A stretch of 64,000 nt of DNA, taken from the NCBI RefSeq assembly GCF_015864945.1, contig NZ_JADYWF010000002.1, positions 186,001 to 250,000 of the forward strand, written 5' to 3'. Numbering within the stretch: the first letter of the stretch is position 1; every line of letters begins with the position of its first letter. This stretch comes from Salinibacterium sp. NG253. GTDB taxonomy: Bacteria; Actinomycetota; Actinomycetes; Actinomycetales; Microbacteriaceae. Under the pieces are notes generated by a model. It saw nothing but the letters and a program-made list of their open reading frames with translations, made no database searches and was not told the origin of the DNA. Below are positions 42,944 through 46,843 of the stretch, piece after piece. The position numbers were made by a program, and so were the translations under genes.

Positions 42944-42956
42944 AATGGCCAGTTGT

Positions 42957-43040
42957 GAAGGCGTGTTTCGGTGGGACCCCGACGCCCCGCAACCCGGCCC
43001 AAGGCTGGGTTAGACCTGCGCACGGTAGAGGTCGACTTCC
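42957..43040 (+). other. Unassigned structured region between 6C RNA and ohrR
   Basis: Three consecutive stems can form: GGCGT...CGG/CCG...ACGCC (42961-42987), AACCCGGCC/GGCTGGGTT (42991-43011) and GACCT/AGGTC (43013-43034). GAAG and CTTC could close them into a multi-branch fold. I compared it mentally with SAM, TPP, cobalamin, glycine and c-di-AMP riboswitch cores and found no match. It could be a second small RNA or chance pairing in GC-rich DNA. Confidence 0.4.
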
Positions 43041-43109
43041 TCAGCAATCGTGGCACTCTGACGGCTCAGTTGCCGCTGGCATCCGGATTGCTGACAGTCC
43101 GCCATATTG

Positions 43110-43138
43110 CTTTGTGCACAATTTATTTGTGTGCAAAG
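43110..43138. promoter_or_regulatory. Probable OhrR operator
   Basis: The inverted repeat CTTTGTGCACAAT...TTTGTGTGCAAAG is AT-rich and ends eight bases before the ohrR start. OhrR proteins bind such AT-rich palindromes, and here binding would block the ohrR-ohr promoter. Regulation is inferred from position and family knowledge. Confidence 0.7.
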
Positions 43139-43146
43139 CTTTCAGG

Positions 43147-43638
43147 ATGGATGACGAACAGAACGAGACGGGATCGGCTCCATCCGCCCTCGACACCATG
43201 CTGTGCTTCGGTCTTTATGCGGCCGCCCGGGCGACGAACCGTCGCTACACCGCGCTTTTGGCGCCGTGGGGGCTGACCTACCCGCAATATTTGGTCCTGA
43301 TTCTCCTGTGGGAACGTCGGTCGTCGACAGTGAGTGGCCTCGCGGACAGCCTCATGCTCGACCTCGGTACCACCTCGCCGCTGATTCGGCGGTTAGAAGA
43401 TCGCGGATTCGTCGTGCGCGAACGATCGGCTTCAGACGAACGGCGCGTAATGGTGTCGCTCACTGCCTCCGGGCTCGCGCTCCGCGCGGAACTGGCTCAC
43501 ATTCCCGGCTGCATCGCCGAGGCCACTGGCATTACTCTCCCCGAATTCACCTCGACGCTGACAACGCTTCACAACGTCACCACCAACCTCTCCACAGCAA
43601 CCGCTGCTGGATCTCATGTCATTGAAAGGCAGAACTAA
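43147..43638 (+). CDS. ohrR: Organic peroxide-sensing MarR-family repressor
   Basis: 163 aa. The N-terminal helix contains the peroxide-sensing cysteine in TMLCFGLYAAAR, matching OhrR. WGLTYPQYLVLILLWE, LGTTSPLIRRLEDRGFV and the wing RSASDERRVMVSLT are characteristic. Oxidation of the Cys releases the repressor from DNA. The ATG at 43147 follows the operator closely, so the transcript leader must be very short. A longer open frame upstream (from 42955) has no family similarity and is rejected. It overlaps ohr by one base. Confidence 0.93.
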   Translation: MDDEQNETGSAPSALDTMLCFGLYAAARATNRRYTALLAPWGLTYPQYLVLILLWERRSSTVSGLADSLMLDLGTTSPLIRRLEDRGFVVRERSASDERRVMVSLTASGLALRAELAHIPGCIAEATGITLPEFTSTLTTLHNVTTNLSTATAAGSHVIERQN

Positions 43639-44060
43639 TGGAAGCTCTCTACACCGCACAGGCTCTCTCGACTGGCGCTGGCCGCAACGGCCACGTAGCT
43701 ACGACATCCGGCTCCGTCGACCTCGACTTGGCTGTGCCGCAGTCGATGGGTGGATCGGGCAACGGTGGCAACCCCGAAGAACTCTTCGCCGCCGGTTACG
43801 CCGCGTGCTTCCACTCCGCGCTGCAGCTTGTTGCTCGCAACGAGAAGGTCGCCATCGACCACTCCTCCGTGGGCAGCGCTGTGCACCTTCTGCCGATCGA
43901 CGGCGGAGGATTCAAACTCGCTGTTGAGCTCGAGGTCGTCATCCCTGATCTTGACCACGACCAGGCTCAGGCTCTGGCGGATGCCGCCCACCAGATCTGC
44001 CCTTACTCCAACGCCACTCGCGGCAACATCGACGTCACCATCACTGTCGCACAGGACTGA
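43638..44060 (+). CDS. ohr: Organic hydroperoxide reductase Ohr
   Basis: A 140-aa OsmC/Ohr-fold peroxidase. Both catalytic cysteines are visible, in AACFHSAL and HQICPYSNATRGN, the latter diagnostic of Ohr rather than OsmC. It reduces fatty-acid and other organic hydroperoxides using lipoylated partners. AAAGG lies upstream of the ATG and translation is coupled to ohrR. A strong terminator follows. Confidence 0.95.
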   Translation: MEALYTAQALSTGAGRNGHVATTSGSVDLDLAVPQSMGGSGNGGNPEELFAAGYAACFHSALQLVARNEKVAIDHSSVGSAVHLLPIDGGGFKLAVELEVVIPDLDHDQAQALADAAHQICPYSNATRGNIDVTITVAQD

Positions 44061-44159: not shown

Positions 44160-44783
44160 CTAGACGATTGCCGCCTTCAGGGCGGCTGCTGCTGCCGCTG
44201 GGTCGGCTGCGCTATAAATCGAGCTCCCGGCAACGGCAACGGTTGCGCCGGCACGCTGCACTGCTGCAATCGTGGAAGCGTTGATGCCGCCAGCGACCGA
44301 GAACGGAACCCGCGCGGTCTCACCGTCATTGAGCAAAGTCTCGAAGGTGAATCCGGGCTCCGCCTGCTCATCGAGCCCTGCATGCATCTCGACGAACACG
44401 GCACCAAGAGCGGTGACCTCCTTCGCGCGAGTGACCTTGTCGGCAACGCCGATGAGGTCAACAACGATGCCCTTCTTGTGGGCTTTCGCCGCTTTCACGG
44501 CACCGATGATGGTGCTGTCTCCGGCGGTGCCCAAGACGGTGACGTAGTCGGCGCCTGCAGAAAATGCGATGTCGGCTTCGAGCTCTCCGGCATCCATCGT
44601 CTTCAGATCGGCGAAGACCATCTTGTCGGGGTGAGCATCCTTGATGGCGCGCACGGCACTGAGACCTTCGTGCTTAATGAGCGGTGTGCCCAATTCGATG
44701 ATGTCAACATACTCAGCAACCTGTCCGGCCAGCGTGAGGGCGGCTTCTGTGGTGAGTACATCCATTGCTACTTGAAGTTTCAT
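44160..44783 (-). CDS. hxlA: 3-hexulose-6-phosphate synthase
   Basis: A 207-aa protein of the orotidine monophosphate decarboxylase superfamily. MKLQVAMDVL, VFADLKTMDAGELEADIAF (catalytic Asp/Lys motif), DLIGVADKVTRAKE and VAGGIN are present. It condenses formaldehyde with ribulose 5-phosphate, or runs in reverse to supply ribulose 5-phosphate. ATG 44783 is chosen for its AAAGAGA ribosome binding site; the open frame upstream runs through the trinucleotide repeat and is not protein-like. It lies downstream of hxlB in one operon. Confidence 0.95.
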   Translation of the reverse strand: MKLQVAMDVLTTEAALTLAGQVAEYVDIIELGTPLIKHEGLSAVRAIKDAHPDKMVFADLKTMDAGELEADIAFSAGADYVTVLGTAGDSTIIGAVKAAKAHKKGIVVDLIGVADKVTRAKEVTALGAVFVEMHAGLDEQAEPGFTFETLLNDGETARVPFSVAGGINASTIAAVQRAGATVAVAGSSIYSAADPAAAAAALKAAIV

Positions 44784-44877: not shown

Positions 44878-44901
44878 GCTGCTGCTGCTGCTGCTGCTGC
44901 T
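44878..44901. repeat. (GCT)8 microsatellite at the hxlB stop codon
   Basis: Eight uninterrupted GCT units, read as AGC on the operon strand. The hxlB stop (TAG) overlaps the first unit encountered. A pure trinucleotide tract this long is uncommon in bacterial DNA. Confidence 0.9.
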
Positions 44902-45481
44902 ACTCGAGGTTGGCGTGCCGCGGCCACAGCTCTTCGGCGGTCGCGCCGGACTCTTGCCACAGCACGTGGAAAAGTGCGTCGCCAAGCAGCAGCAACGATT
45001 GTTCGAACAATCCGCCGGAGTATTGAGCCGAACGAGTGTGCCCGTGGTCTTGTTTCTGTGCGGCGGGGATGATCACGGCGACCTGTGCGAGCTGTGCCAG
45101 AGGCGAGTCCGCTGCCGTGGTGACGGCGATGACCTGAGCACCAACCTCCTTCGCAGTCGTTGCCGAGCGGATGATGCCGGCGGTCGTTCCCGAGCCGCTT
45201 GCTGCGAGAAGAACATCTCCAGCAGCAATTGCGGGAGTGGTTACCTCGCCAACCACGTGCACGGCCAGGCCCGCGTGCATGAGGCGCATCGCGAGCATCC
45301 GCAGGGCTAGTCCGGAGCGGCCGGAGCCGAGCACGAACACTCGGGATGCGGTGCTGAGCAGGTCGAGTGCTGATCGCACTGCCTCGGATTCGTCGCGAGC
45401 GATTGCGGTGCTGATGCGGGTATTTTCCGCGAGAACAAGTTCGATTGCGGAGGAAACCGTAGTGGTGTCGTTGCTGGCCAT
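44900..45481 (-). CDS. hxlB: 6-phospho-3-hexuloisomerase
   Basis: A 193-aa SIS-domain isomerase. VFVLGSGRSGLALRMLAMRLMH (phosphosugar-binding loop), LLAASGSGTTAGII and SAQYSGGLFEQSLLLLGDAL are typical of HxlB. It converts hexulose 6-phosphate to fructose 6-phosphate, completing the ribulose monophosphate step begun by HxlA. It is first in the operon, and a regulator gene lies divergently 93 bases away. Confidence 0.95.
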   Translation of the reverse strand: MASNDTTTVSSAIELVLAENTRISTAIARDESEAVRSALDLLSTASRVFVLGSGRSGLALRMLAMRLMHAGLAVHVVGEVTTPAIAAGDVLLAASGSGTTAGIIRSATTAKEVGAQVIAVTTAADSPLAQLAQVAVIIPAAQKQDHGHTRSAQYSGGLFEQSLLLLGDALFHVLWQESGATAEELWPRHANLE

Positions 45482-45536
45482 TACTTCACTGTGCCACCCG
45501 TTTGGGCAGCAGACCGCCCACCTTTTGGCCGGTTTT

Positions 45537-45568
45537 CCCTATCCGAAAGGGTAGGTCGCGCCTAAAAT
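45537..45568. promoter_or_regulatory. Inverted repeat and -10 element in the hxl/regulator promoter region
   Basis: CCCTATCC-GAAA-GGGTAGG (45537-45555) is an interrupted inverted repeat centred between the divergent genes. TAAAAT (45563-45568) looks like the -10 of the regulator gene. It would place transcription start at or very near the GTG at 45575, giving a leaderless mRNA. Confidence 0.55.
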
Positions 45569-45574
45569 GGGGGA

Positions 45575-46843
45575 GTGACTGCTCTCAGCAACGCCAGTTC
45601 CCTTGACCTCCTCGATGCCGCCCATTCGGTGGTGTCACGTTCTCTGCTTCAGATTGCGAGCGCCTTTTCTGCGGTGCTTGCGCCCATGGTGGCGCACAGC
45701 TCTCTATTGATATTCACGGAAGACTGCACAGGGCGCCCTCAGAAGAAAGCGGGGGATCCTTCGATCACCAATCACGTGAGCATCGCCGAACTCGACGCCG
45801 TGCGTGAGACAGTGTCGAGCATCGGGCATCCGGTGTGGGGAATCACGGCGGTAGTTGCCCGCCACGAGCGTCCCGCAGCAGTGTGGATTGCGCCGACCGG
45901 TTCGCTGCTCGTCCTCACCGATCCGGTGATCGTGACTGGTGGGCAATCGCAGGAACAGGCGTTGGCGACGATCGCGTCACTGTGGCGATTGGTGGCGGTG
46001 AGCATCCAGCAGCAAGTTGCCGTTGCAAGCCCCGACTATCTTCGGGATTCGCGGATGGCATCGCAGGATCGCGCCCAGGTTATTGCCGATCTCACCGACG
46101 CGCACTCCACGACTCTGGAACAAATTCTTGCGACGTTGCGCTCTCGTAGTGCGTCGGATGAGACTGCGCGCCAAGAAGCCACCGAGCTGGCCGCTACGGC
46201 GATGGTCAATCTGCGGGCGGTGTCTGATCGGGATCGCAGTTTGGCTGAGGAACCGGTTGCGCGCGCTTTCGAACGCCTCAAAGCAGACCTGCGGCCCTTG
46301 GCCCGGTTTGGAGGCCTTGACGTGCAATTTGTGGAACCACCCGCTAACGGTCGCGCACTGCCGGGCGAAGTCGCCCACGCTGGCCGAGCGATCGTTCGGG
46401 GCGCTGTGCTTGCGCTCGTTGACCAACCGGGAGTCGCTCGGTTGCGGGTGGAGTGGGATTGCGACGGGGAGAATCTGCTGATTGGGATTCGCGATGACGG
46501 CCCTGGTGAGCTAGCGGTGGAAGACCCCGCTGTGCGGCAACTTGTTGAGAGGGCAGCTGCCCTTCGTGGTCGGTTGAGCGTGAACGGTACTGCGGGGTGG
46601 GGTTCCGAAATCTCGGTTGTCTTGCCTCTGAGCGCTGAGGGGCTTGATCGTTCCCCGAGTGCCCAGTGGCAGGTCACGCAACGGGAAGCCGACGTGCTGG
46701 AGCTGGTCGCCTCGGGTGCCCGTAATAAAGCCATCGCGCTCTCGCTCTCCATCAGTGAGAACACGGTGAAGTTTCATGTGGCGAACCTGCTGCGCAAGGC
46801 GGGGGTCTCGAACCGGGCTGAGCTCGTTTCGGCCTATCGCTGA
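45575..46843 (+). CDS. Regulator fusing a degenerate kinase core to a LuxR HTH, divergent from hxlBA
   Basis: 422 aa. Residues ~10-155 look like a GAF-type sensor domain. Residues 165-190 resemble a NarL-type DHp helix, but the His-box reads DLTDA (T174 for His). An ATPase-like domain (~255-352) keeps the G1 DDGPG and G2 GWGSEISVVLPL but has lost the N-box Asn. The C-terminus is a full LuxR HTH (VTQREADVLELVASGARNKA, then SENTVKFHVANLLRKAGVSN). It is thus a one-piece regulator built from sensor-kinase parts. It probably controls hxlBA (inference from divergent position). The GTG start follows GGGGGA and may be leaderless. Confidence 0.8.
   Translation: MTALSNASSLDLLDAAHSVVSRSLLQIASAFSAVLAPMVAHSSLLIFTEDCTGRPQKKAGDPSITNHVSIAELDAVRETVSSIGHPVWGITAVVARHERPAAVWIAPTGSLLVLTDPVIVTGGQSQEQALATIASLWRLVAVSIQQQVAVASPDYLRDSRMASQDRAQVIADLTDAHSTTLEQILATLRSRSASDETARQEATELAATAMVNLRAVSDRDRSLAEEPVARAFERLKADLRPLARFGGLDVQFVEPPANGRALPGEVAHAGRAIVRGAVLALVDQPGVARLRVEWDCDGENLLIGIRDDGPGELAVEDPAVRQLVERAAALRGRLSVNGTAGWGSEISVVLPLSAEGLDRSPSAQWQVTQREADVLELVASGARNKAIALSLSISENTVKFHVANLLRKAGVSNRAELVSAYR

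Follow-up and report, generated by a model that had tools for sequence, protein, structure and literature searches.

Formaldehyde-responsive control of formaldehyde genes has been described in two forms. In Bacillus, hxlAB is controlled by HxlR, a member of the MarR/DUF24 family that responds to formaldehyde (PMC8879981, PMC7835342), which cross-links its Cys11 to Lys13 (PMC7835342). In Paracoccus, FlhSR is a two-component formaldehyde system in which a sensor kinase and a DNA-binding response regulator serve the formaldehyde genes (PMC8879981). We analyzed a window of 64,000 nucleotides of Salinibacterium sp. NG253 in which hxlBA lies beside a regulator of another make. HxlR is unrelated to this regulator, being a winged-helix protein without a GAF domain and without a kinase fold, and FlhSR is a true two-protein phosphorelay, whereas the regulator is one chain without catalytic residues. 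The regulator has the DHp and the Bergerat CA fold in common with the NarL-family sensor kinases (HPK7/HisKA_3: DesK, VraS, and DosS; Z 15-17); unlike them, it lacks the phosphoacceptor His and the N-box Asn that holds Mg-ATP, and it has its own DNA-binding domain in the chain. SdiA, QscR, and LasR, like the regulator, join a GAF-like ligand domain and a LuxR HTH in a single chain, but the regulator has a pseudokinase module of ~200 residues between the two. No description of such a regulator of actinobacterial RuMP genes was found in the open-licence literature searched. Judged from its sequence and its genomic setting, the protein very probably regulates the response to formaldehyde and represents a type of regulator not described in that literature.

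Domain architecture and loss of kinase residues

The features of the locus are collected in Table 1. Homologues of the regulator, ~40-98% identical, were found across Microbacteriaceae, Micrococcaceae, and Mycobacteriaceae, the closest named ones being those of Salinibacterium sp. SWN167 and SWN248 (98%), and there is no full-length paralogue elsewhere in the 2.97-Mb genome. In Pfam searches, the LuxR/GerE HTH was the sole match to the regulator (63.6 bits against a cut-off of 23.5), in agreement with the LuxR domain read from the letters alone. HATPase_c was matched weakly in 17/60 family members, GAF was not matched in the regulator although the fold is GAF, and an HxlR-type winged helix was absent from both the Pfam and the NCBIfam results.

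Table 1. Features of the regulator locus, with positions counted in the window
Feature	Position	Strand	Remarks
hxlA, 3-hexulose-6-phosphate synthase	44160..44783	-	TIGR03128, 253 bits, cut-off 200
hxlB, 6-phospho-3-hexuloisomerase	44900..45481	-	TIGR03127, 235 bits, cut-off 160
Weaker operator-like site CCACCCGTTTGGGCAG	45494..45509		10/12 consensus positions; 45 bp from the putative operator; same site in L038
Putative operator CTATCCGAAAGGGTAG	45539..45554		11/12 consensus positions of CTACCC-N4-GGGTAG; centre ~65 bp upstream of hxlB start
GAF-pseudokinase-LuxR regulator gene	45575..46843	+	422 aa, GTG start
GAF domain	45575..46024	+	residues 1-150; fold match
GAF motif TEDCTGRPQKKAG			residues 48-60; holds Cys51, Lys57, and Lys58; fold and conservation
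DHp-like helical pair	46031..46240	+	residues 153-222; Thr174 at phosphoacceptor place
Thr174	46094-46096	+	occupies phosphoacceptor His place
Degenerate HATPase/CA fold	46250..46630	+	residues 226-352; G1 and G2 glycines retained
Ala280	46412-46414	+	occupies N-box Asn place
Cys296	46460-46462	+	within WDCDG of CA fold
NarL/LuxR-type HTH	46664..46834	+	residues 364-420

Using an AlphaFold2 model built from 60 homologues (mean pLDDT 87), we found the middle of the protein to be rich in helices and to hold an ATPase fold. Residues 154 to 354 resemble the DHp-CA region of VraS, DesK, and DosS (VIA-align Z 17.1 to 14.8), with VraS giving Z 17.1 and an rmsd of 2.4 over 129 residues. Residues 1 to 152, modelled separately (pLDDT 92.5, pTM 0.88), resemble GAF domains and the AHL-binding LuxR domains of QscR and LasR (Z ~11 to 10), with an rmsd of ~3 over ~130 residues. 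The GAF-like domain and the DHp-like helix claimed in the sequence-only reading are thus borne out by fold matches, the former at Z ~11.

That reading had also called the protein a dead kinase, with no phosphoacceptor His in its helix and an ATPase fold that keeps its G-boxes and lacks the N-box Asn. When the profile of the regulator was aligned to NarL-type kinases from the same genome (hhalign probability 98), the H-box and N-box regions were in register, with Thr174 falling at the phosphoacceptor and Ala280 at the N-box Asn position. Across 99 non-redundant homologues, the phosphoacceptor position held Thr in 46, Val in 31, Ala in 8, Gly in 7, Ser in 3, Ile in 2, and His and Met in 1 each. 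At the N-box Asn position, Ala was found in 94, Thr in 3, Ser and Val in 1 each, and Asn in 0/99. The G1 residues D307, G309, and G311 were invariant in these 99 homologues; in the GWG at 341 to 343, W342 and G343 were invariant and G341 was nearly so. The position of the catalytic Glu is Gly276 in the regulator. A NarL-type kinase in the same genome (L002/L126) likewise carries a Gly where the N-box Glu would be and retains the Asn; therefore, we dropped the loss of the Glu as a sign of a dead kinase and took the Asn to be the telling loss. The H-box and N-box losses across the homologues uphold the earlier call, and by its residues the regulator is a predicted pseudokinase one-component regulator in which phosphotransfer has been lost. 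The only phosphoacceptor His found by alignment, that of L026, occurs in a protein from which the N-box Asn is missing, and it does not overturn that call; this His may be left over from an ancestor or have arisen by reversion. A kinase still working through His177 or by trans-phosphorylation could draw on the conservation of His177 in 94/99 rows and on the one member with His at 174. However, it is exceedingly improbable given that no row has the N-box Asn, that His177 is replaced by Tyr in the fdhA clade and sits 3 residues beyond the canonical position, and that GAF and HTH on a single chain make a partner unnecessary, and we rejected it on the H-box and N-box losses.

In conservation, the X/N-box region (mean 0.82) and the CA hairpin (0.85) come close to the DNA-recognition helix (0.91), which argues that the dead ATPase fold is under strong selection. 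That the fold still holds a nucleotide is a tentative suggestion, with the odds somewhat against it.

Linkage to hxlBA and a candidate operator

The identities of hxlA and hxlB rest on NCBIfam equivalog models, with scores over the cut-offs. The regulator gene is divergent from hxlB-hxlA, with start codons 93 bp apart, and we determined whether its homologues keep this company. Among 199 Microbacteriaceae genomes, 51 had both the regulator and hxlA, 2 had the regulator alone, 1 had hxlA alone, and 145 had neither, and the regulator was the divergent neighbour of hxlBA in 48/55 of its copies in this family. In an Arthrobacter-type genus (61 genomes), the corresponding counts were 30, 1, 3, and 27. 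These genomes share descent, so that p-values for the co-occurrence overstate independence; the distribution is patchy inside genera. In L062, the hxl genes lie 3' of the regulator on the same strand, with a perfect operator candidate between. The mycothiol-dependent formaldehyde dehydrogenase was not found above its family cut-off in the Salinibacterium genome, which makes hxlAB possibly the principal formaldehyde sink there. An OhrR-like MarR regulator and an Ohr peroxiredoxin adjoin hxlA (42955-44060), placing an organic hydroperoxide module beside the formaldehyde module, and directly downstream of the regulator a TadA-family pilus ATPase (TIGR03819; 46950-48038) heads a Tad/Flp-like gene run.

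The regulator/hxlB intergenic regions have a palindrome in common, the conserved inverted repeat CTACCC-N4-GGGTAG, and in the window a weaker element lies between the two sites of Table 1. The exact ACCC-N4-GGGT dyad occurred in 25/54 upstream regions against 0.7 expected from shuffles, and a best score of 11 to 12 of 12 was reached in 20/30 upstream regions against 0/600 control segments from the same loci. In G004, where the regulator is 820 kb from hxlBA, there is a perfect 12/12 site at each, and no site was found near hxlB in any of the four examined hxlBA operons of regulator-less genomes (G167, G691, G665, and G692). The operator candidate tracks the presence of the regulator. In L050 and L060, both operator arms are altered together to CTACTC/GAGTAG and a Ser in the recognition helix is changed to Thr; as a single event, this is only suggestive of a co-change in specificity. 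The conserved linkage and the tracking operator candidate support the control of hxlBA that had been read from the divergent position, and we consider such control very likely from these comparisons. In a pattern scan of this genome, six places matched, each of them on both strands, compared with four in a reversed control, and the high-scoring form was seen at hxlB only. A wider regulon in this genome was rejected because the other operator matches were at control level.

The position of the operator bears on the direction of control. Its centre lies 63 to 65 nt upstream of the hxlB start codon in most of the Microbacteriaceae examined, and a -10-like nAnnAT is conserved 53 to 58 nt downstream of the centre (54 loci). 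This geometry suggests that hxlB transcripts may be leaderless in Microbacteriaceae and that activation would occur from about -64; the transcript of the regulator itself is probably leaderless as well. A sigma-70 promoter scan of the regulator-hxlB intergenic region found nothing. With its centre near -64, the operator would precede the -35 region and has a -10-like element downstream, and on this ground we favour with fair confidence the reading of the regulator as an activator. In a rival account, the signal-free protein would be a repressor that blocks both the hxlB promoter and its own until formaldehyde releases it, and the operator of the window does overlap the likely -35/spacer of the regulator's own promoter, beginning 36 nt upstream of the GTG. 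We hold repression to be unlikely: at hxlB the placement of the site is typical of activation, and proteins with a LuxR/NarL HTH are mostly activators.

Relatives beside other formaldehyde genes and the candidate signal

Homologues that are not linked to hxl genes exist, and most of them are linked to other formaldehyde genes, which strengthens the claimed connection rather than counting against it. Five (L027, L099, L103, L116, and L117) adjoin the transketolase-transaldolase-epimerase-rpiB-aldolase genes of RuMP regeneration (tkt-tal-rpe-rpiB-fba), three (L131, L132, and L133) adjoin fdhA, which encodes the glutathione-independent formaldehyde dehydrogenase, and members of the mycobacterial clade adjoin the mycothiol formaldehyde dehydrogenase (mscR), for which the L117 protein reached the family cut-off and the mycobacterial proteins were assigned by their resemblance to it. 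L114 adjoins a ribulokinase. The operator candidate is retained in the fdhA-linked members (10 to 12 of 12) and is weak or absent in most of the tkt-linked and mycobacterial members. For L052 (Cryobacterium) and L061 (Rhodococcus jostii NBRC 16295), no formaldehyde gene was recognised within 6 kb; L061 has no operator, and genes for a P450 and a YceI protein adjoin it. In a quick tree of 53 rows, the fdhA-labelled members form one clade (100) and the mscR-linked members another (99), both apart from the hxl clades; L144 was placed in the fdhA group by sequence alone, not by its neighbours.

Because most non-hxl members adjoin fdhA, the mycothiol formaldehyde dehydrogenase, or RuMP regeneration genes, these neighbourhoods suggest that formaldehyde or an adduct of it is the signal, which we think moderately likely. 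The signal might instead be a sugar phosphate of the RuMP cycle (ribulose-5-P, hexulose-6-P, or fructose-6-P) held in the GAF or the dead ATPase pocket of the same regulator. The links to hxlBA, to tkt-tal-rpe-rpiB, and to one ribulokinase would suit such a ligand, as would the small molecules bound by GAF and Bergerat folds, but fdhA, the neighbour of some relatives, uses no sugar phosphate, and neither does the mycothiol formaldehyde dehydrogenase, making this signal quite improbable.

Short forms of ~275 residues without the GAF domain fall in two separate positions of the tree, implying that the domain was lost at least twice, and most of them are still beside hxlBA with the operator candidate retained. 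Since the hxl link stays where GAF is lost, part of the regulation has to reside in the pseudokinase core; the common regulatory unit would be the pseudokinase with the HTH, and the GAF domain would be an add-on. Within the GAF domain, conservation peaks in the segment with TEDCTGRPQKKAG (mean 0.93). Cys51, in CTGRPQKKAG, is present in 89/92 full-length rows and absent from the short forms and the fdhA-linked forms, and Cys296 is absent from most of the mycobacterial clade. They are the only conserved Cys of the family, and nearly all members have at least one of them. We rejected Cys51 as a universal sensor, given the short forms without GAF and the fdhA-linked forms without the motif, and Cys296 as well, given the mycobacterial clade. 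Direct covalent sensing, in which formaldehyde would cross-link Cys51 to Lys57 or Lys58 in the GAF hairpin or react at Cys296, would fit the conservation peak and the two cysteines and has the HxlR Cys11-Lys13 precedent (PMC7835342). Nevertheless, neither cysteine is universal and the GAF-less forms remain hxl-linked with an operator candidate, and we give this chemistry a minor chance.

Proposed mechanism and implications

The regulator looks like the descendant of a sensor kinase of the NarL family to which a LuxR-type HTH was joined. Dimerisation would probably fall to its DHp-like helices, the dead ATPase fold, perhaps nucleotide-bound, would act as a conformational relay, and the GAF domain would tune the protein. 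In the space that separates the regulator gene from hxlB, the dimer would contact DNA directly at CTACCC-N4-GGGTAG. Upon a rise of formaldehyde or an adduct, hxlBA would most likely be activated, and the regulator would also control its own gene. The whole model, a one-component pseudokinase-LuxR factor controlling hxlBA in response to formaldehyde or an adduct, most likely as an activator, is in our judgment probable. A bolder extension is more speculative and falls somewhat short of an even chance: across the family, an actinobacterial formaldehyde sensor would use the dead histidine kinase core, not phosphorylation, to relay formaldehyde (possibly by way of covalent adducts with Cys51/Lys57 or with Cys296) to the LuxR HTH of the same chain, before four formaldehyde-handling gene sets.

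A candidate regulator of actinobacterial RuMP genes, its candidate operator, and a compact test set are now available, and the regulator may provide a new formaldehyde biosensor part. The family would also offer an evolutionary series in which a two-component system collapses into one chain, with the dead kinase kept as a relay and some forms dispensing with the sensory domain.
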